Position numbers and translations under genes: made by a program. The notes beneath the pieces were generated by a model. The model was not told the DNA's origin. It worked only from the letters and a program-made list of their open reading frames with translations, and did no database searches. DNA of 25,418 bases from Phocaeicola plebeius (lineage in GTDB: Bacteria; Bacteroidota; Bacteroidia; Bacteroidales; Bacteroidaceae), in the NCBI RefSeq assembly GCF_003437535.1, contig NZ_QSQT01000041.1:2922-28339 (forward strand), given 5' to 3'. This document shows, piece after piece, positions 9,401 through 18,337 of the stretch (within the stretch, counting starts at the first letter, position 1; each line of letters starts with the position of its first letter).

Positions 9401-12400
9401 GACAGATTCATATCCGGCAATGTAGTGGAAAAGGCAGAGCAGGTGGAATGGTGGCTAGAGAATCATCCTGGCAATGAAGAGGCAAAAAAGAGTCTTGAAG
9501 CATTGAAGGCTGCTGTACCTACGCCAATATCTTTCGGAGAGCTTGATTTTAATTTCGGTGAAAGATGGATTCCTGCAAAGGTCTATGAAAAGTTTGCGTG
9601 TGAGTTTTTTGAAACAGACGTAAGTGTGCGCTTTGCAGCAAGTGCAGATGAATATTCTGTAAAGTGCAGCAGTAAAAATGGTAATATTAATCATAAGTAT
9701 GCCGTCAAGGGCGAGTTCAAGACTTATGACGGTATTAACCTGATGAAACATGCTTTGCATAATACGATACCGGACATAACAAAAAGCAAGACGGTTGTTG
9801 ATTTTAATGGTAATGAAACTGAAATCAAGGTAAGGGATGGTGCAGCCATTCAGTTGGCCAATACAAAGATTGAAGAAATCCGGAATGGATTTACAGATTG
9901 GCTACAGTCGCAGCCGGATGGATTCAAGAACAGGTTGGCAGAAAAATACAACAGGTTGTTTAACTGTTTTGTACGTCCTAATTATGATGGAAGTCATCAG
10001 GAGTTTCCGCAGCTTGATTTGAAAGGTTTGGGCTTTCCTGATTTGTATAAGAGTCAGAAAGATGCTATCTGGATGCTGAAGGTGAATAATGGTGGTATAT
10101 GCGACCATCAGGTGGGAGCAGGAAAGACTGTTATCATGTGTTGTGCTGCATACGAGATGAAACGTCTTGGTATTGTAAACAAGCCTATGATTATCGGATT
10201 GAAAGCAAATGTATTTGATATTGCAAATACTTTCAGAAAGGCTTATCCCAATGCCAGAGTATTATATCCCGGTAAGAATGATTTTACACCGCAGAACAGG
10301 CAGCGTATCTTTAATGACATAAAGAACAATGACTGGGATTGTATTATCCTTACACATGAGCAGTTTGGAATGATACCTCAGTCTTTGGATATTCAGCAGG
10401 CAATTCTTCAGAAGGAACTTGACAGTGTGGAAGAAAACCTGCAGGTTCTTATCGAGCAGGGTAAGGAGGTTTCACGTGCTATGCTGAAAGGTGTGGAGAA
10501 GAGAAAGATGAATCTTGAAGCTAAATTGAAAAGTATTGCAGACGATATAGCTTCACGAAAGGATGATGTGGTGGATTTCAAGCGAATGGGTATAGATCAT
10601 CTGTTTGTAGATGAAAGCCATAAATTTAAAAATCTGATGTTCAACACACGTCATGACCGTGTAGCCGGACTTGGAAACTCGAATGGAAGTTTGAGGGCAC
10701 TCAATATGCTGTTTGCTATCCGTACCATTCAGGAGAGGACCGGAAAAGATCTTGGTGCTACTTTCCTAAGTGGTACAACTATCAGCAATTCACTTACAGA
10801 ACTTTATCTGCTGTTCAAATATCTAAGACCTCAGGCGCTTGAAAAGCAGAATATAAACAGTTTTGATGCTTGGGCAGCCGTGTTTGCGAAGAAAACTACT
10901 GACTATGAGTTTTCTGTAACTAATGAAATAGTGCAGAAAGAACGATTCCGTCACTTTATCAAAGTTCCGGAGCTGGCTGCTTTCTATGCTGAAATCTGCG
11001 ACTATCGTACAGCGAAGGATATAGGTATAGACCGTCCGGAGAAGAATGAGATTCTTCATAATATTCCACCTACACCTGTTCAGGAGGAATTTATAAAAAA
11101 ACTGGTGGAGTTTGCTCGTACAGGTGATGCTACTTTGTTGGGCAGAGAGCCATTGTCACAAAAGGAAGAGAATGCAAAGATGCTTATTGCAACTGACTAT
11201 GCACGAAAGATGTCACTTGATATGCGAATGATAGATCCGTCATACGAGGATCATGTGGACAATAAAGCTTCACATTGTGCTAAAATGATTTCGGAATATT
11301 ACAAGAAATTTGATTTTGTAAAGGGTACACAGTTCGTATTTTCCGATCTTGGTACATATAAGCCTGGAGAATGGAGTGTATATTCTGAAATCAAACGTAA
11401 ACTGGTGGAAGATTATGGTATCCCTTCCTCAGAGGTTCGTTTTATTCAGGAATGTAAGACCGAACAGGCTAAAAAAGCAATGATAGAGGGAATGAATAAA
11501 GGAACTATCAGAGTGTTGTTCGGCTCAACAGAAATGTTGGGTACCGGAGTTAACGCACAGGAACGTGCGGTTGCGGTGCATCATCTTGACACGCCTTGGG
11601 TTCCTTCTGCTTTGGAGCAACGTGATGGCCGTGCTGTTCGTAAAGGCAACTGGGTAGCCAAACAACATGCTGACAATAAAGTTGATGTGATTGTATATGC
11701 TGTAGAGAAGTCTCTTGATTCATATAAGTTCAATCTGTTACATAACAAGCAGTTATTTATTAATCAGCTAAAGACTAACAGCTTGGGTAAAAGAACCATT
11801 GATGAAGGAGGAATGGATGAGCAGAATGGACTTAACTTCAGTGAATATGTGGCTATTCTTTCTGGCAACACGGATTTGTTGGAGAAAGCCAAGTTGGAAA
11901 AGAAGATTACGGCACTTGAAAGTGAACGTAAGAGCTTTGCCAAGGAACGTGATGAAGCAAAATTCCGTTTGAATACTATTGACAAATCTATTGACTTTCA
12001 TACAAGGCAAGCGAATGAAGCTAAAGCAGATATGGAGCAGTTTAACCGTCTTGCACGTAAAGATAGTGACGGTAATTTGCTTAATGACTTAAAGTTGAAT
12101 GGAATAGAAAGTCAGGATGTCAAAGTCCTTGCAGCAAAGCTACAGGAGATTTCTAATAAAGCCAGAACCAATGGTGAATACCATCAGATAGGTGAGATTT
12201 ATGGCTTTCAGGTGGTCGTAAAGAGTGAAGCATCCCAAAAGGATATGTTCGATTTTGTGGATAACCGTTTTATGGTTAAGGGTATGGGAAACATATACTA
12301 TACTCATAATAACGGTCATTTGGCAAATGATCCCAAATTGGCTTGCATGAACTTTCTGTCCGCTTTGGAAAAAATTCCCAAGGTAATAGAAAACCATGAA

Positions 12401-12649
12401 CGTGAGCTTGAAAAAGTAAAACGTGACGTTGAAACGTATAAAGCCATAGCTTCAGGTGAATGGAAAAAAGAAGGTGAGCTGAGAAAACTGAAATCTGAGC
12501 TTTCTGAGCTGGACCGCAAAATTAGTCTTACTATTAATAAGAATAAGGATGATGGTGATAAGGAACAAGTGGTTAAGACTGATACCTCAGGAGAGGTTTA
12601 TAATCGGATTGACAAGGGAAATGATGGGGTTAAGGTGAAATTGAGATAG
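6464..12649 (+). CDS. Giant N6-methylase / SNF2-type helicase fusion
   Basis: A 2061-residue fusion. The N-terminal part is a class I adenine-methylase fold: NGFGGLK near residue 40, SAM-binding DPSVGMGSF near 130, and SNIPFGN near 195 where catalytic enzymes have (N/D)PP(Y/F). The middle holds a Lys-rich linker (about 700-745, many KK/GK). The helicase begins after residue 1150: Walker A VGAGKT near 1217, Walker B DESH near 1383, SGTTISN (motif III), then a second RecA lobe with [13 protein letters not shown] (motif V) and [13 protein letters not shown] (motif VI, near 1718). A coiled coil (about 1805-1840) and charged tail close the protein. The layout resembles phage P1 DarB and Bacteroidales element proteins called methylase/helicase. 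Those are thought to protect or process incoming DNA; that role here is inferred. The NIPF variant leaves methyl transfer uncertain. Last gene of the operon. Confidence 0.9.
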
Positions 12650-12679
12650 AAAAATAAAATGGATTTAGTTTACCATATA

Positions 12680-12719
12680 CTCTCGGGAAAACTGATATAT
12701 TGGGCGTTATTCCCGAGAG
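12680..12719. terminator. Hairpin between convergent transcripts
   Basis: CTCTCGGGAA (12680-12689) and TTCCCGAGAG (12710-12719) form a perfect 10-bp stem, with a possible extra AAC/GTT pairing inside the 20-base loop. It lies 30 bases after the helicase stop and 15 bases after the reverse transcriptase stop, where a bidirectional terminator would be expected. Neither side has a clear T tract, so termination is inferred from position and stem strength. Confidence 0.6.
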
Positions 12720-12734
12720 GCATTTAATAAAACT

Positions 12735-14261
12735 TTATTTCCTGTTTTGGATACTGGTAAAAATTCTACCACCATAATTGTAATATTCGAACCATTGTCT
12801 TTTAGATATAGAACTATTAATATCCTGTTTTGCTTTAAGTATCAGTGCCTTAAGAATAGGTTTGTTACGTTTTAATTGATGTAAAATTTCTTTTGATTCA
12901 CAAATTGCAGCAGATTTAATAATATAACTCCAGTAATTTCCATAAGACCTTTTACCTGTATAAAAGAACTTCTTTGTTTTCTTATCACGTTTACGGATTT
13001 TATGGCATTTGCTACCAATAGGAGTATATTTTTTAAGTATTTGATTAACAAATAAATGTCCTAACGTATTATCTTTTTTGTAAATAGCATATTTCTTTTT
13101 ACGGTCAATACTTTTGCGCATTTTAAGATAGTAATGATTTATTCCTTTATTTTTGATTCTAATAGACTTACCATCAAACGCAAATCCTAAATATTCAATA
13201 CTTGAGTATTTCTCCTGGTTTCTGACGCAGGTTTCAAGCTTACAGTTTTTGTAAACTTGGTATATTTTAGTCTTATCTTCAGAAATTGTTAGTTTGACAT
13301 TTTTTATTTCTATATTTAATTTATTAATACAACCATGAGTATTACAACTTGGACAAACAATCATAATATCATCGGAATATCTACGATAAAAACCACCTAA
13401 TGATTCAACATATTTTGAAAGCTGCCAGTCAAACCTATACATATAAATATTAGCAAGGATTGCGCTGATAGGCAATCCTTGAGGAATACCAACATTGGGT
13501 TGGTTTAATCTTATTAGACCTTTAGAACGAATAAATGATATTTTATCTTTGTTACAGAAGGCTATAACATTTTTATTTCGAAAATACTTCATGTTCTTTA
13601 CCTTCCTTTCTATGTATTTATTACTTTGGGGTTTTGAACAAATCATTTTGTCTTTAAACAACTCAAATAATTCCTGATTGTTTATATAAGAAAAACGAGT
13701 AACATGTTTAAAAATGTTATATTCGTCAATGCCTAAACTCATCTCTCCACAAATGAATTTCCACGCTCTTTTTAATAATGTATGGTTTATGTTATCAAAA
13801 AAAGAATTTATGTCTGTAACAATGACAGATAGAGAGGTATGTACAGATTGCTCTTTTATAAAATTGAATGCTTCTTTAGCAAAATCAATATTACATTTAC
13901 TTCCTTTTGGTTCTTTTGGTACAGAACGATATGCAATAACATTGTTTCCTAAATTGTTGTTTTTCAGAAATATTTCATATTTCTTACTTAATTGTTGAGC
14001 ATAGTAAGAGTATATTAATGAATCAAAATGTGAAGCATAACTAATATGACGTATTTTGGTTTTCTTTCTAAATTTACCGTCTGGGCAAAGTTTATATTTG
14101 AATGTTCTATGTTCCCTTCTAATCAACGGTAAAAAAGCATAATGTGATATTTTGATTTTATTATGAATAAATTTTTCAATATCATTTCTTTGATTAGGTG
14201 ATATGGGAAGACCAATATGTGGATATCGTTTAAGCTTAAACCAGCTTTTATTTGCTTTCAT
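12735..14261 (-). CDS. Defence-associated reverse transcriptase, probably DRT2 (UG2) type
   Basis: A 508-residue reverse transcriptase. Motif A is VTDINSFFDNINH (catalytic Asp about 150), motif B is GIPQGLPISAILANIYM (258-274) and motif C is YSDD (295-298). A thumb-like motif IEYLGFAFDG follows, then a basic C-terminal region. The N-terminus has LKRYPHIGLPI, FLPLIRRE, RHISYASHFDS and NIDFAKEAFNFI, which I recall from DRT2-type antiviral RTs; this is recognition from memory, not a search. It lacks the maturase and endonuclease parts of group II intron RTs and is longer than typical retron RTs. DRT2 enzymes copy a cognate upstream RNA into repetitive cDNA during phage infection. Here about 480 bases upstream are non-coding and encode a structured RNA with a long open frame, which fits. 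Other UG groups with ncRNA (for example DRT9) are not excluded. The region is more AT-rich than the helicase, suggesting separate acquisition. Confidence 0.9.
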   Translation of the reverse strand: MKANKSWFKLKRYPHIGLPISPNQRNDIEKFIHNKIKISHYAFLPLIRREHRTFKYKLCPDGKFRKKTKIRHISYASHFDSLIYSYYAQQLSKKYEIFLKNNNLGNNVIAYRSVPKEPKGSKCNIDFAKEAFNFIKEQSVHTSLSVIVTDINSFFDNINHTLLKRAWKFICGEMSLGIDEYNIFKHVTRFSYINNQELFELFKDKMICSKPQSNKYIERKVKNMKYFRNKNVIAFCNKDKISFIRSKGLIRLNQPNVGIPQGLPISAILANIYMYRFDWQLSKYVESLGGFYRRYSDDIMIVCPSCNTHGCINKLNIEIKNVKLTISEDKTKIYQVYKNCKLETCVRNQEKYSSIEYLGFAFDGKSIRIKNKGINHYYLKMRKSIDRKKKYAIYKKDNTLGHLFVNQILKKYTPIGSKCHKIRKRDKKTKKFFYTGKRSYGNYWSYIIKSAAICESKEILHQLKRNKPILKALILKAKQDINSSISKRQWFEYYNYGGRIFTSIQNRK

Positions 14262-14404
14262 TTTTGTGTATTTAGAAATAATTCCTTATCTGTTTATATA
14301 GAAAGTATATATTTCTTTATGAGAATTCATTCTAATGGCCACATAAAAATGATGTATCAATTAAATCTTCTCCAAATAGAAATACCATACCTCAGAATAT
14401 AAAG
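14262..14404 (-). other. Spacer between predicted ncRNA and RT start
   Basis: About 140 AT-rich bases without a gene. Small possible hairpins are visible in the minus-strand RNA: GAGAA/TTCTC enclosing ACAT/ATGT, and ATATA/TATAT about 45 bases before the RT start codon. I see no second promoter matching the consensus, so RT and ncRNA are probably made from one transcript. Confidence 0.5.
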
Positions 14405-14741
14405 TATAGAGCGAGTAAGAACGGAGTTTAACGTAAAATATTACGTAGCCTTCGATGAGTAAACAAGAGGCCATGTTAAAGACCTCACCCCTAAGATATT
14501 TAGAATAATATCCTTAACTTTGTTTATAAATATAATCATAACCATAACAGCCATGAATACAGATAAACTCGGTAAATTACTATCTAATCTTAGCAATATT
14601 ATCACAATATTATCTTTCCTTTCAGAAATTATATCGTTAAATATTTGCTACTTTAGAAGTATTATCCTTTTGCACCAATTTGCAAAAGCTGATGAAAGTT
14701 CACTTTAAAGATAAGCTTCAGAAATCTCACTCGCTCTAAAT
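14405..14741 (-). ncRNA. Predicted structured RNA, probable template of the adjacent RT
   Basis: Read on the minus strand, the 5' arm 14738-14725 and 3' arm 14420-14407 pair over 14 bp (UAGAGCGAGUGAGA with UCUUACUCGCUCUA), bringing the ends of a roughly 335-nt RNA together. The one non-Watson-Crick position is G-U in minus-strand RNA but A-C in plus-strand RNA, which fixes the transcribed strand. Inside are hairpins TTTTGCA/TGCAAAA (14687-14668), TACTT/AAGTA (14661-14649), AGGATATT/AATATCTT (14514-14493), GAGGTC/GGCCTC (about 14486-14467) and ACGTAA/TTACGT (14446-14431). GTAGC (14651-14647) can also pair with GCTAC (14449-14445), closing the central region into a loop. That loop is stop-free in one frame from 14647 to 14444. 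DRT2-type RTs use a similarly placed upstream RNA as rolling-circle template. Ends and folding are predictions by eye. Confidence 0.75.
14444..14647 (-). other. Stop-free 68-codon frame inside the ncRNA (candidate neo template)
   Basis: In the sense frame starting CAA ATA TTT at 14647, no stop occurs until TAA at 14443-14441. The preceding stop is TAG at 14650-14648, in the 3' arm of one hairpin; the following TAA lies in the 5' arm of another. The other two sense frames carry six and eleven stops over the same stretch. The conceptual peptide has a charged start (ISERKDN), a strongly hydrophobic middle (VFMAVMVMIIFINKVKD) and ends SSKAT, so it looks helical. There is no convincing start at its beginning; in-frame ATG codons occur near 14554. 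In DRT2 such a frame becomes endless when cDNA is concatenated in multiples of three. An antisense frame is also open over 14520-14705, so strand choice rests on the RNA structure and the DRT2 precedent. Confidence 0.5.
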
Positions 14742-14746
14742 GTATT

Positions 14747-14754
14747 CAAAGTTA
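14747..14754 (-). promoter_or_regulatory. -7 box of the ncRNA/RT promoter
   Basis: TAACTTTG matches the Bacteroides -7 consensus TAnnTTTG exactly. Transcription would begin about 6 bases later, at 14741-14740, precisely where the 5' arm of the ncRNA closing stem starts. No TTTG is found 19-21 bases upstream; the nearest TTG (14787-14785) is 30 bases away, so the promoter may be weak or activated. Confidence 0.6.
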
Positions 14755-14846
14755 ATAATATTTTTTATTTTATAGAGCTTTTGACAACCCAAAAAGTAAA
14801 ATAAAATCCTTTAGCTGTCACATTCTTAAAATAAGGTCTGTTAAAT

Positions 14847-15320
14847 TTACAGATCTTTATTTGATGAGAAAAATACTTCTAATACCTGCTCAAAAATCGG
14901 TATATACTTTCGTGGAGTTAATGGACTTTTTGAAAAAGCATAAATCAAATTTATGTATTCTTCATCCGAGAGAACTCCTACAACCTCGGCAGACTCAAAT
15001 GACTTTAGAAGATTTTCCTGTTCACCTTCTCGAAAACAATAATCAAACGGGATGGTAGTTACCAGTGGAAAAGAGAAATCCTCGTCAGAACCATATTTCT
15101 TTCCAATGCACCTGTTGGCTTCAAATACGTACGATACAATATCCTGTCCTCTGTAGTTCTTGCCGTGTTTCGGTGATAAGCTACCGGAACGTTTTCTTGA
15201 AGTAGGAAATACGGCAACAACGTTCAGTTTTTCACTTCTATAGAGGGAAATCAGATACTTGTTTTTGGGAGGATTTGTAAAGGTGCAAAAACCGTAGATA
15301 ATATTCTTTGCCCTTAACAT
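14847..15320 (-). CDS. Putative toxin partner of the Panacea antitoxin
   Basis: A 157-residue protein whose ATG overlaps the stop of the upstream Panacea gene by 7 bases (ATGTTAA), so the two are translationally coupled. The N-terminal half is beta-rich (KNKYLISLYR, LNVVAVFPTSRKR, FPLVTTIPFDYCF), the C-terminal half helical (SDEEYINLIYAF, IPIFEQVLEVFF). The alternating strands recall MazF/PemK-type RNase toxins, but I cannot identify catalytic residues and do not claim that family. The toxin call rests mainly on context: Panacea antitoxins are known to be paired with small, highly diverse toxins. No signal peptide or membrane segment is present. It ends just before the promoter region of the RT system, which it could help to stabilise or complement in defence. 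Confidence 0.6.
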   Translation of the reverse strand: MLRAKNIIYGFCTFTNPPKNKYLISLYRSEKLNVVAVFPTSRKRSGSLSPKHGKNYRGQDIVSYVFEANRCIGKKYGSDEDFSFPLVTTIPFDYCFREGEQENLLKSFESAEVVGVLSDEEYINLIYAFSKSPLTPRKYIPIFEQVLEVFFSSNKDL

Positions 15321-15895
15321 ACCGATGTCGCATTACAGAACTGCATATATTCCAGTGCATCCTCAAAAACTTCTTCTTTTTCTTCGTCACCTTCAATAAG
15401 ACGGTTCAGATGAATTTCACAGTCAGAACGACCTGAATCTGAAAAAGTAAGATTGTTTTCATTCACTACTTTACTCCACAAGGTATCATCAAGATGGGTA
15501 ATGTCGGTAAGCTCATCTGCTGACATGGATCCGTATGTAGAAATGATTTTATCAATCATATCCATTTCATACTGACTGTAGAGGTTTAGCTTTTCTTGTG
15601 TAAGAATACCACTAACCGGAGATACTTCACATTTGTCTTCGTTGTTACGATGGCACTGTACATACTCTGAAAATGATCCGTTCTTTACATCATATACTTC
15701 AGGTGCAACAGGGCCTTTTTTCCATGCAAAGTAACTGAACCAGGTTAGAGGGAATCCTCTTTCGATAGTGAATTTTTCATCTGTAAGATACACCAGCTTC
15801 AATAGCTTCCTAAGGGTTATGTTAGGAATTCTTTCTGCGAGGTATGCTAATAAAACCCCATTCTTTTCTTTATTTACTGTATATCCAAAGCTCAT
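15314..15895 (-). CDS. Panacea/SocA-like (DUF4065) antitoxin
   Basis: A 193-residue protein started at ATG 15895 (MSFGYTVNKEKNG). The frame remains open to 16069, but the added residues are hydrophobic, unlike the family, and cover the promoter. Residues about 10-130 match the Panacea domain: GVLLAYLAERIPNITLRKLLKLVYLTDEKF, followed by GFPLTWFSYFAWKKGPVAPEVYDV, which contains the typical W-x-KGPV-x-EV element. The C-terminal third is acidic (EGDEEKEEVFEDALEYM). In known systems the Panacea domain neutralises a cognate toxin, usually the adjacent gene; here that is the 157-residue downstream protein, overlapping by 7 bases. Antitoxin-first order and a consensus promoter directly upstream suggest an autonomous operon within the element. 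Confidence 0.85.
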   Translation of the reverse strand: MSFGYTVNKEKNGVLLAYLAERIPNITLRKLLKLVYLTDEKFTIERGFPLTWFSYFAWKKGPVAPEVYDVKNGSFSEYVQCHRNNEDKCEVSPVSGILTQEKLNLYSQYEMDMIDKIISTYGSMSADELTDITHLDDTLWSKVVNENNLTFSDSGRSDCEIHLNRLIEGDEEKEEVFEDALEYMQFCNATSVC

Positions 15896-15958
15896 AATGC
15901 TGTTTTTAAAGTTGTAATATTCTAATAAATAACTGTTTGAAGATATTATTAGCGTTTG

Positions 15959-15989
15959 CAAAATTACAATTATTATCGTATTCCGCAAA
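15959..15989 (-). promoter_or_regulatory. Promoter of the toxin-antitoxin operon
   Basis: On the minus strand TTTG (15989-15986), a 19-base spacer and TAATTTTG (15966-15959) fit the Bacteroides consensus exactly. The start would be near 15952, about 57 bases before ATG 15895. An imperfect inverted repeat, CGTTTTGC and GCAAACG, brackets the promoter and could be an autoregulatory operator; this last point is weak. Confidence 0.8.
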
Positions 15990-16007
15990 ACGTTAATACT
16001 TATATTC

Positions 16008-16280
16008 TTATCGTCTTTCCTTTTGATGTGCAAGAACATCTTTTGCATAAAATAATCGTCTGCCACCAATCTTTACCGAAGTAACTTTTCTTTCGTAAGC
16101 CCAGCGGTAAACGGACTTGGGGGCAATTTTGACTATTTTGGAAACATCCACTACATCGAGAAGAGTATCCGGACCAACCAGCAGTTGGCTCTTCTCCAGA
16201 TTGCTCAATGTAGTTTCTATGGCTTTAAGGCGGGTAAGGATTTCTTTTATCCATACATCCATTTCTTCATCATTATTCAT
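16008..16280 (-). CDS. Excisionase-like helix-turn-helix protein
   Basis: A 90-residue DNA-binding protein. The N-terminal 35 residues form a helix with coiled-coil character (IKEILTRLKAIETTLSNLEKSQ). A MerR/excisionase-type winged HTH follows: LDVVDVSKIVKIAPKSVYRWAYERKVTSVKIGGRRLFYAKDVL. The pattern SVYRWAYERKV plus GGRRLFY is typical of Bacteroidales element Xis/MobC-like HTH proteins. Its ATG overlaps the stop of the upstream primase-helicase by 4 bases (ATGA), so it is the last gene of that operon. In CTnDOT, small proteins of this kind direct excision. Here the role could be excision or replication control; no integrase is in the window to decide. Identity as an HTH protein is firm. Confidence 0.85.
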   Translation of the reverse strand: MNNDEEMDVWIKEILTRLKAIETTLSNLEKSQLLVGPDTLLDVVDVSKIVKIAPKSVYRWAYERKVTSVKIGGRRLFYAKDVLAHQKERR

Positions 16281-18337
16281 AGGCTGATATTCCCGGTTAT
16301 GTAATAATTATTGGAGTCTTGCGACAACATTTCGTTTTCTTTCATGTATCGGATATAGCTTTTGGCTGTACGTTCTTTTACGTCAAGCATATCCATTATT
16401 AGTTCTGTCAAGTCATTGTAAGATACCTTTTTTCGTGACTTGAATATCTCTTTGGTAATATTGGATAGTTCTGTACGTTTTCGCTTTTCCTTATCTTCGA
16501 TGGATTTTTCTCCGGCATAGACGTGCATGTCCTTTGTTTTGTCCCATGTAAAGAGTAACATGGGAACATCAAGAGGGCTACCATCCCTTACTTTGATAGC
16601 TTTTACAACTGAGTAAGCAGGATTTTCATCTTTCTCAATGGAGAGGATAGCAGCAGCCTTTCTTTGCAGTTCTGAACCAATATGTCCTCTAAGTTTGATT
16701 CCATTGGGTACGAAATGCAGAACACATATTATACATGTTTTGTATATACCTGCAAGTCTGTACAGTTCGTCAACAATGGCTATACTTTCAGTTTCATCAT
16801 TTGCGGAGCGGATTAGGTCTGCTATTCCGTCTATAACGACAAGGTGTATTCCTCCCTGGCGGTGATAATACAGGTCCATGCTGTCCCTTATAATCTGTAG
16901 CCTTTCTTTCCTGGACATGGATGCCAGATAAAATGTGTGATATGTTTCCGGAACAGAATCAATGCCTACTCGTTTTAAAGTCTTTGAAAGGTTCTTGTAG
17001 AGCTGATACTCTGATTGTTCTGTGTCATAATGAAGTATTGCTTTTTGATTATAGTTTGGGCAAATATCCAATCCTAATGTATCAACAGAAGAATCAGTTG
17101 TTTCATCTATCAATGTTCCGGCTATAATGGCTGAAATAAAGTTGCTTTTACCAGTGCCTTCACCTCCGGTTATACAAAACAGATTATCGTATGTTCCTAA
17201 TGGTACATCATTGACTGATACAACAGTTTTAGAAATTTCAGGTGGATTGTTATAGTCCATTTCGCATGATTTGAGTAACATGAGTGTATGAGAATATAGT
17301 TTTTCCAATGAATTTGTGATAAGTTCCCGTAAATCTGATGCACTTTTACCAAGAGCAAAGAAATCCGATATATCTTTTTCCTTTTTACTTCCTGATAATG
17401 GCAGTTCCAGACGTATGACATTATGGTCTGACAAAGCATTGTAATGGCGTAGAGATTCCCTTTTACCTGTCTCATCAGAATCGTATAAAATGATGATGTG
17501 TCTGAATTTCCTTTCAAGCATTTCTATCATGGTTGTTGGAATAGATGCTGTTTCACTGTTGAAGCAGACAGCAAAAAATCCTTTTGAATAGAGTGACATC
17601 ACGTCTTTTTCTCCGCCTGTTATGAAAACAATATCTCCTTTGTTGGGGAGTTGTTCCAGTCCAAAGCAATATACTTCAGGCATTTCACCACCATACAGAA
17701 AGCGCATTTTGTTATTTAATGGTCTATAAAGTTTTACATATCCATTTCCGTTATAGGCAAAAATGGGATCTAAATCTGATGATTCTATTTTGAATGGCTC
17801 ATTATTCCTGTTTATGCTTTCGTATGATTTTACAGATGTTACATGATAAAGCCTTAATGTGGAGAGTTTTATGCCATATTTTTGCCAATATCCAAGTTCG
17901 GTAGATGTGAATTGTTTTGATTCGACTTTGAAAGAACTTGTATTCTTTTCTACTGCTATATTTGGAGAAATATTTTCTTTGGATACTGTTGCCGTTTTTG
18001 CTGTAGTGGTGGTGTATGTTCCTGTTGTACTTGGTGCAAGATTAAGATTCAAGTCTGAGTTTATAAGACTGACTATATTGGAAAAGTCGGATTTGACATT
18101 CCAGCCTTTTATTGTGGCAACGAACCAGAAACAATCGCCGGAATAACTTTCGTCACCAAAGTCCTTCATCTTGAAGGTGCGTGAATGTCTGTCAAAGTAG
18201 ATGTTACATGAGGCATTTTTATCATCATATAACGGATTCTTGAAGTTTTTTCCCGGTCGGAAATCTATCCGAAGATAATATTTGAAAACATCAAGTCCCC
18301 TGTTAGTACGGTCCAGTATTTCTTCCTTGTTTATCAT
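16277..18337 (-). CDS. Toprim primase / RecA-like helicase
   Basis: A 686-residue replication protein. Residues 1-90 resemble a CHC2-type primase N-terminus (NPLYDDKNASCNIYFDR, then FKMKDFGDESYSGDCFWFV), though classical zinc ligands are incomplete. After a Thr-rich linker (about 100-125), a Toprim domain carries FITGGEKDVMSLYSKG (near 239) and IILYDSDETGKRE (near 284). A RecA/DnaB-like ATPase has Walker A GGEGTGKSNF (near 392) and Walker B HLVVIDGIADL (near 500), then LHFVPNGIKLRGHIGSELQRKA. The last 60 residues look like a winged helix (KKVSYNDLTELIMDMLDVKERTAK). It resembles mobile-element bifunctional primase-helicases that replicate the excised circle. It overlaps the upstream HTH gene by 35 bases and the downstream one by 4, so the three are cotranscribed. 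Confidence 0.9.
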   Translation of the reverse strand: MINKEEILDRTNRGLDVFKYYLRIDFRPGKNFKNPLYDDKNASCNIYFDRHSRTFKMKDFGDESYSGDCFWFVATIKGWNVKSDFSNIVSLINSDLNLNLAPSTTGTYTTTTAKTATVSKENISPNIAVEKNTSSFKVESKQFTSTELGYWQKYGIKLSTLRLYHVTSVKSYESINRNNEPFKIESSDLDPIFAYNGNGYVKLYRPLNNKMRFLYGGEMPEVYCFGLEQLPNKGDIVFITGGEKDVMSLYSKGFFAVCFNSETASIPTTMIEMLERKFRHIIILYDSDETGKRESLRHYNALSDHNVIRLELPLSGSKKEKDISDFFALGKSASDLRELITNSLEKLYSHTLMLLKSCEMDYNNPPEISKTVVSVNDVPLGTYDNLFCITGGEGTGKSNFISAIIAGTLIDETTDSSVDTLGLDICPNYNQKAILHYDTEQSEYQLYKNLSKTLKRVGIDSVPETYHTFYLASMSRKERLQIIRDSMDLYYHRQGGIHLVVIDGIADLIRSANDETESIAIVDELYRLAGIYKTCIICVLHFVPNGIKLRGHIGSELQRKAAAILSIEKDENPAYSVVKAIKVRDGSPLDVPMLLFTWDKTKDMHVYAGEKSIEDKEKRKRTELSNITKEIFKSRKKVSYNDLTELIMDMLDVKERTAKSYIRYMKENEMLSQDSNNYYITGNISL

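Follow-up and report, generated by a model that had tools for sequence, protein, structure and literature searches.

A diverged DRT2 locus in a Phocaeicola plebeius conjugative element, with a predicted endless gene and a predicted Bacteroidota-type junction promoter

How might a reverse transcriptase (RT) that writes its own gene supply that gene with a promoter in a phylum whose primary promoter is not of the sigma70 type? The question is raised by a stretch of 25,418 nucleotides (nt) from Phocaeicola plebeius (assembly GCF_003437535.1, contig NZ_QSQT01000041.1, positions 2,922 to 28,339 of the forward strand; hereafter the window, whose own numbering is used throughout), in which a first-pass annotation had placed a DRT2-like RT and, just upstream on the same strand, a structured template RNA. 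For KpnDRT2, passages of PMC12039810 and PMC11100668 describe a neo gene antisense to the non-coding RNA (ncRNA), a template bounded by ACA repeats, and a repeat junction that builds a sigma70 promoter. The primary promoter of Bacteroidota, TTTG/TAnnTTTG, is distinct from sigma70, and in F. johnsoniae the -33 part is described as weak or as not observed (passages of PMC7366714 and PMC6847099). We conclude that the locus probably represents a Bacteroidota branch of DRT2 that writes an endless gene carrying the promoter of its host phylum.

The RT is encoded at 12735..14261 (minus strand) by an uninterrupted open reading frame (ORF) of 508 amino acids (aa) in which the motifs FFDN, GIPQG and YSDD are all present, as annotated. 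Its best PADLOC profile is Drt2, with 426 bits (E 4.8e-128) against 81 bits for the runner-up group, UG17. On the NCBIfam Drt2 model it reaches 346 bits, under the equivalog cut-off of 390, and so do all six relatives tested (336-383 bits), three of which carry the Bacteroidota names Parafilimonas, Pedobacter and Dyadobacter; a plasmid-borne Photobacterium Drt2 scores 567 bits. This cut-off is a threshold for naming, not for mechanism. The nearest solved structure by sequence is KpDRT2 (9c0i, E 5.9e-56), which is also the best PDB match of an AlphaFold model of the RT (mean predicted local distance difference test score 87.6), with a template modelling score of 0.87 on the target; DRT9 comes next by E-value at 0.51, and the remaining matches listed do not exceed 0.58. 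In a quick tree of 50 RTs, built without L017, L031, L050 and L094 because their open frames were short, the window RT joins P0002 and then P0003, and it falls with L108 and L002 in a starred group of 13 rows nested within a larger Bacteroidota DRT2 group. By profile, fold and tree, the enzyme is thus a diverged member of DRT2/UG2, and the profile search proposed at the outset places it inside the DRT/UG families. The word "diverged" suits the rest of the locus equally well, its repeat not being ACA and its predicted promoter not being of the sigma70 type.

Does a structured RNA lie upstream, as annotated? The predicted ncRNA, comprising scaffold and template, spans 14405..14742 on the minus strand. 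The stretch 14741-14405 (-) folds at -94.2 kcal/mol, versus a shuffle mean of -66.4 (standard deviation 6.13; z -4.54), and none of 100 shuffles folds as well, a comparison that measures folding potential. Its ends are held together by a closing stem of 11 base pairs (bp), one of them G-U, in which the 5' arm GAGCGAGTGAG (14726..14736, minus strand) pairs with the 3' arm CTTACTCGCTC (14409..14419, minus strand), as checked by eye. An 8-bp hairpin directly 5' of the template (14667..14688, minus strand) is a candidate 5' handle. The -7 box that had been thought to set the RNA 5' end at the closing stem was found as TAACTTTG at 14754-14747 (-); if its G stands at -5, as described for F. johnsoniae in part of PMC6847099, the RNA would start at about 14742. 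By eye, no TTTG was seen at the matching -33 position upstream of this box. Scans of the window yielded no Rfam match and no tRNA.

Within this RNA lies the candidate template. Several short direct repeats occur, two of which are 7 nt long and lie near the expected ends: TTTAGAA, with copies 153 nt apart, and TATCCTT, with copies 154 nt apart. Read in the sense of the complementary DNA (cDNA), the TTTAGAA copies at 14652..14658 (template 5' repeat, equivalent to ACA-1) and 14499..14505 (template 3' repeat, equivalent to ACA-2 and a candidate re-priming site), both on the minus strand, would bound a template of 153 nt (14506..14658, minus strand) whose cDNA reads as the plus strand. A jump at TTTAGAA gives the predicted junction TTTAGAA followed directly by TAATATCC. 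On the neo strand, the unit has 8, 5 and 0 stops per repeat in its three frames. Head to tail, the junction reads AATATTTGCTACTTTAGAA joined to TAATATCCTTAACTTTG, which amounts to TTTG, 20 nt, and TAACTTTG. A -33 element (14644..14647, plus strand) and a -7 element (14515..14522, plus strand) are therefore brought to a spacing of 20 nt only across the junction, where the locus is predicted to create a sigma-ABfr-type promoter, TTTG-N20-TAACTTTG. The predicted neo begins at an ATG at 14553, runs to the end of the unit (14553..14658, plus strand), resumes at 14506 past the junction, and adds 51 aa per repeat with no stop; its product would be MNTDKLGKLLSNLSNIITILSFLSEIISLNICYFRIISLTLFINIIITITA, repeated, with a mean Kyte-Doolittle value of 1.19. 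In the chromosomal arrangement, the corresponding antisense ORF is bounded (14520-14708, 62 aa), and the direct repeats turn it into the endless frame. Neither this ORF nor the repeats figured in the first-pass annotation. Gene callers may list this proto-neo, on the strand opposite the ncRNA, as a hypothetical protein of 62 aa.

The arrangement was also sought by a scan for junctions combining TTG, a TAnnTTTG box in which one mismatch was allowed, a spacing of 19-21, a direct repeat of at least 4 nt, and a unit of 100-200 nt, criteria that owe their form in part to the window and in part to the clade described below. The sole candidate in the window is the 153-nt, N20, endless unit. Among 20,000 dinucleotide shuffles of the 500 nt upstream of the window RT, an endless frame with exact boxes occurred in 5 with a repeat of at least 4 nt and in 0 with a repeat of at least 7 nt.

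The arrangement was compared across related loci. A clade of 20 Bacteroidota loci with GGTAT-type repeats was chosen on a shared Neo-like antisense ORF, before unit lengths were measured, and its units were then measured repeat to repeat with the frame not consulted. They are 150, 153, 156 or 159 nt long, multiples of three in all 20 cases, and an endless frame is present in 20/20 (two open frames in L018). The exact TTTG-N20-TAnnTTTG occurs in 17 of the 20, with L006, L019 and L055 one base off in the -7 box; an ATG is present in all 20, and 18 of the 20 have an A at -3. A scan of 22 further loci, including the window, revealed endless N20 candidates in eight: the window (153 nt), L108 (141), L002 (132), L088 (150), L099 (162), L100 (129), L059 (129) and L091 (132). 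The endless candidate was top-scoring before openness was counted in six of these eight and tied with a non-endless one in L099 and L100. Because this second scan selected for endless frames, the multiple-of-three lengths outside the clade are not independent evidence. Across spacings of 12-28, N20 stands out, with 20/20 loci in the clade and 8/20 in the other set; the sense strand gave 1 and 0 of 20, regions further upstream 0 and 1 of 20, and each of six shuffled sets (three per locus set) 0/20. L101, which has no candidate, and the Persicobacter locus L154, which has no endless one, stood outside the spacing counts and are entered as misses in the overall tally, which puts the junction geometry in 28 of the 42 DRT2 loci from Bacteroidota, window included. 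Copies of the window locus (L001, L058, L150) were not counted, L017 was kept apart because it is not from Bacteroidota, and the scans did not take in L056, L095, L097, the weak RT matches L061-L087 or a partial Marivirga plasmid match (H25). Searches of viral_contigs found one and six distant loci and no close ones, and PLSDB and phage records held no match of at least 60% identity.

The RNA architecture recurs as well. In 20 relatives that share a scaffold, the ncRNA ends pair too, as GGGNCAG/CTGNCCC and variants, with one position showing all four Watson-Crick combinations and some G-U (by eye). RNAalifold predicted 60 pairs for the 20 clade ncRNAs, 18 of them with at least one change on both sides; the closing stem, which was out of register in the alignment, is missing from this prediction. 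A crossing helix, GTAGC/GCTAC (A2/A3, by eye), is possible in the clade and so nearly invariant that it provides no covariation evidence for a pseudoknot. Beyond the clade, eight further loci each have a candidate closing stem. In seven of them (L002, L017, L059, L088, L099, L100 and L108) it precedes the RT start by 16-21 nt and the template by 71-96 nt; in L091 the distances are 7 and 90 nt. These stems, mostly unrelated in sequence, were picked by position from at most three candidates each, and the 430-nt stretch used for the search cut off the stem of the window itself, which stands 78 nt before its template and 147 nt before the RT start.

Taken together, these elements suggest the following course of events. 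The RT would bind the closed ncRNA and copy the 153-nt loop between the two TTTAGAA repeats; at the template 5' end, the TTTAGAA of the cDNA would re-pair with the 3' copy, and synthesis would therefore go round again, yielding a rolling-circle concatemer. Second-strand synthesis, expected on phage infection, would convert each junction into TTTG-N20-TAACTTTG, and transcripts from these junctions would be translated from the ATG at 14553 into an endless hydrophobic protein with a 51-aa repeat, Neo. This protein should stop growth and thereby abort infection, making the locus a putative defence system.

Several observations weigh against this reading. In the clade, endless candidates also occur at spacings of 13 (13/20), 23 and 26 (7 each), the first of which is consistent with a further, inner TTG located seven bases downstream within that junction. 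In the mixed set, other spacings give 0-4 of 20 endless candidates and the further-upstream control up to 6, and single loci there are therefore less certain than those of the clade. An endless N20 candidate was not found in 14 of the 42 Bacteroidota DRT2 loci (L098, L089, L103-L107, L154, L020, L023, L060, L090, L101 and L102), which may have promoters of another form or work by another mechanism. The closest relatives, P0002-P0023 (45-64% identity), are represented by protein records only. Selection for coding is moderately indicated in the clade Neo core, where 780 of 2297 single-base codon differences are synonymous (0.34, against 0.23 expected under uniform change), the pairs being non-independent and RNA constraint a possible contributor; length changes in multiples of three, together with stop avoidance, appear to be stronger signs. 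Relative to the promoter, the reading frame of the window is one base out of step with that of the clade (by eye). The window is not matched by a covariance model of the clade 3' scaffold (R1), the best unfiltered hit within 12000-16000 lying elsewhere with E 1.5; across 19 sources, the sole strong match of the model was the training sequence L014, with one weak match in L100 (E 4.3). The claim made here is therefore one of shared RNA architecture, not of shared sequence. Conservation of the upstream region with the RT, the lack of which the first-pass annotation had named as a refutation, is seen in the architecture of many relatives (closing stem, direct repeats, open antisense frame and junction promoter); homology of the RNA at the nucleotide level is not supported by this model. 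A last point is that the neighbouring repeat, TATCCTT, would yield a 154-nt unit that is not endless.

That repeat underlies the first of four competing explanations, in which the RT jumps at TATCCTT (14509/14663). TATCCTT matches TTTAGAA in length and directly adjoins the 5' hairpin; with the promoter at N21, its 154-nt unit would shift frame at each repeat and thus encode one bounded protein of little over one repeat. The unit has stops in every frame, however, and where relatives have a candidate, the end of the repeat falls 11-14 nt past the -33 element at N20, matching TTTAGAA. Found alongside the 153-nt unit, it was set aside because the clade geometry fits 153 nt, and we hold it to be unlikely. 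We give a still lower probability to a DRT2-like RT whose product acts as DNA, either repeat or homopolymer cDNA as in DRT9/DRT10, with the open antisense frame incidental. Class 2 UG RTs do make several kinds of product, according to part of PMC12632851, where UG17 is called DRT10; yet UG17 and DRT9 both fall far behind DRT2 by profile, DRT9 does so by fold as well, and the endless frame with its N20 promoter recurs across the phylum.

Chance is at the heart of another proposal, namely that the upstream region is a structured RT leader or an ordinary small antisense ORF with fortuitous repeats. The 62-aa ORF does appear in a mechanical ORF list, and AT-rich DNA readily yields short repeats, but the shuffle and control-region counts, the unit lengths in multiples of three in 20/20 clade loci, and the covariation in the clade ncRNAs make this explanation very improbable. 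The locus might also be a DRT2 copy that has decayed and lost its function, a view in line with the 147 nt between ncRNA end and RT start, as opposed to 7-21 nt in the eight relatives searched. Against this stand the uninterrupted RT with its catalytic motifs kept, the presence of all predicted parts, and the fact that 12614-14900 is one base from the copy in genome G001 while the flank is more divergent; decay, too, seems a very slim prospect.

Returning to the endless gene with a host-type promoter, what happens outside Bacteroidota? A sigma70 scan (at most one mismatch per box, repeat of at least 3 nt) was applied to 37 DRT2-like loci, most of them from other phyla, with viral contigs and L101 (from a Bacteroidota genome) also in the set. 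Endless candidates peak at a spacing of 17 (15/37), versus 2-11 at the other spacings from 12 to 23, in counts with no shuffle control. TTGACA-N17-TATAAT with a 135-nt unit was found in L053 (Lachnospiraceae bacterium A4), the similar locus L046 and L031, and an annotated drt2 of Photobacterium, serving as positive control, shows TTGACA-N17-TATAAT with a unit of 111 nt. Of two further annotated drt2 loci, Nitratidesulfovibrio L153 has its candidate at a spacing of 16 and Psychrobacter L152 has none, and the scan is therefore not complete. In the Bacillota or unplaced loci L046, L053, L031, L029, L028 and L022, endless units of 135-150 nt are predicted, and their sigma70-like junction promoters have a spacing of 17 (18 in L022). 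The gammaproteobacterium Moraxella caprae (L017) has a DRT2 40% identical to the window RT, and its scan gave TTGACA-N17-AATAAT with a 108-nt endless unit and a repeat of 4; the locus is not relied on because, from the start used, just 94 codons of its RT frame are open. Within the reach of these scans, the junction promoter appears to follow the host phylum, which suggests that the promoter of the synthetic gene is fitted to its host. More tentatively, and with slightly less than an even chance in our estimation, DRT2 may be a portable module for gene writing in which the junction promoter, sigma-ABfr N20 in Bacteroidota and sigma70 N17 elsewhere, ties the synthetic gene to one phylum. Were this true, each passage of the module into another phylum would require a change of promoter type in the template rather than in the RT.

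Among the papers listed in searches of a largely open literature, judged by title and the opening of the abstract, none was recognised as treating Neo genes or junction promoters in Bacteroidota, and the string "Bacteroid" is absent from the main texts of PMC11100668, PMC12039810 and PMC12596737. In part of the DRT2 preprint (PMC11100668), ncRNAs are predicted for divergent clades, Neo is called "more challenging" to annotate, and alternative mechanisms are raised. For much of the Bacteroidota branch, exchanging the expected sigma70 promoter for that of the phylum itself seems to be enough for a predicted endless gene to emerge. Exact predicted repeat units are now available for 28 loci, one of them in a gut-type mobile element, and the combination of direct repeats, an endless circular frame and a junction promoter can serve as a rule in the search for hidden genes.

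The window belongs to a Bacteroidales conjugative element, as the first-pass annotation had recognised: Pfam identifies a topoisomerase, a 2,061-aa methylase/SNF2 helicase and RteC, and the element also carries a Toprim-containing primase-like protein and small helix-turn-helix (HTH) proteins. The interval from the HTH/primase genes to the methylase is occupied by cargo: a Panacea-domain protein, a 157-aa partner, and the RT together with the RNA upstream of it. The annotated Panacea toxin-antitoxin neighbour is indeed present, in the form of a SocA_Panacea-domain, antitoxin-like protein (15314..16069, minus strand; PF13274, E 3.1e-21) whose ORF overlaps that of the partner (14847..15320, minus strand), a candidate toxin. 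The partner has no Pfam, NCBIfam or PADLOC match; its family comprises 166 homologs, with no Pfam domain or informative name among the 120 of 166 matches listed, and it may represent a new Panacea-neutralised toxin. In genome G026, the same HTH-HTH-primase-HTH backbone and the methylase flank AbiEi (PADLOC 284 bits) and AbiEii (447 bits), at L139 9665-11466, the site of the Panacea and DRT2 cargo; the interval that separates the HTH/primase genes from the methylase-helicase may be a defence hot spot. Ten of the twelve regions compared showed only the methylase (one being just 3 kb long), and the site comparison therefore rests on G026 and the near-copy G001. The earlier idea of a small defence island thus gains partial support from the AbiEi/AbiEii pair at the same site, with the backbone of only one other genome comparable. 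Relative to G001, the RT/ncRNA segment 12614-14900 differs by one base and 14901-16323 by 32, a contrast that may reflect mosaic exchange, either of the module or of the sequence flanking it.

How, then, does the locus compare with known systems? Like DRT9 and DRT10, class 2 UG RTs, it pairs an RT with an ncRNA and is predicted to make repetitive cDNA. Unlike it, those systems make homopolymer or short tandem-repeat DNA, not a gene, and their profiles score far lower here, as does the DRT9 fold. With the 20-locus GGTAT clade, the window shares the predicted N20 sigma-ABfr junction promoter, an endless unit in the 150-159-nt range and a terminal closing stem; it differs in that its repeat is not GGTAT, its scaffold RNA is unrecognised by the covariance model, and its frame is one base off relative to the promoter. 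The resemblance to KpnDRT2 (9c0i; passages of PMC12039810 and PMC11100668) extends to the UG2 RT fold, an upstream ncRNA on the same strand, short direct repeats bounding the template and, here predicted from sequence alone, an antisense endless ORF, a multiple-of-three unit, a promoter formed only across the junction and a hydrophobic product. In contrast to the KpnDRT2 described in those passages, the window has TTTAGAA in place of ACA, a predicted unit of 153 rather than 120 nt, an RT of 508 rather than 425 aa, a predicted sigma-ABfr TTTG-N20-TAnnTTTG promoter instead of sigma70 with 17-bp spacing, and an 11-bp terminal closing stem. Because the ACA motif is lacking and the RT scores under the NCBIfam cut-off, we do not call the locus a Kpn-type DRT2. 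Judged by its anatomy, it would nonetheless work by the same mechanism as DRT2, with a different boundary motif, a different promoter class and a different unit length.

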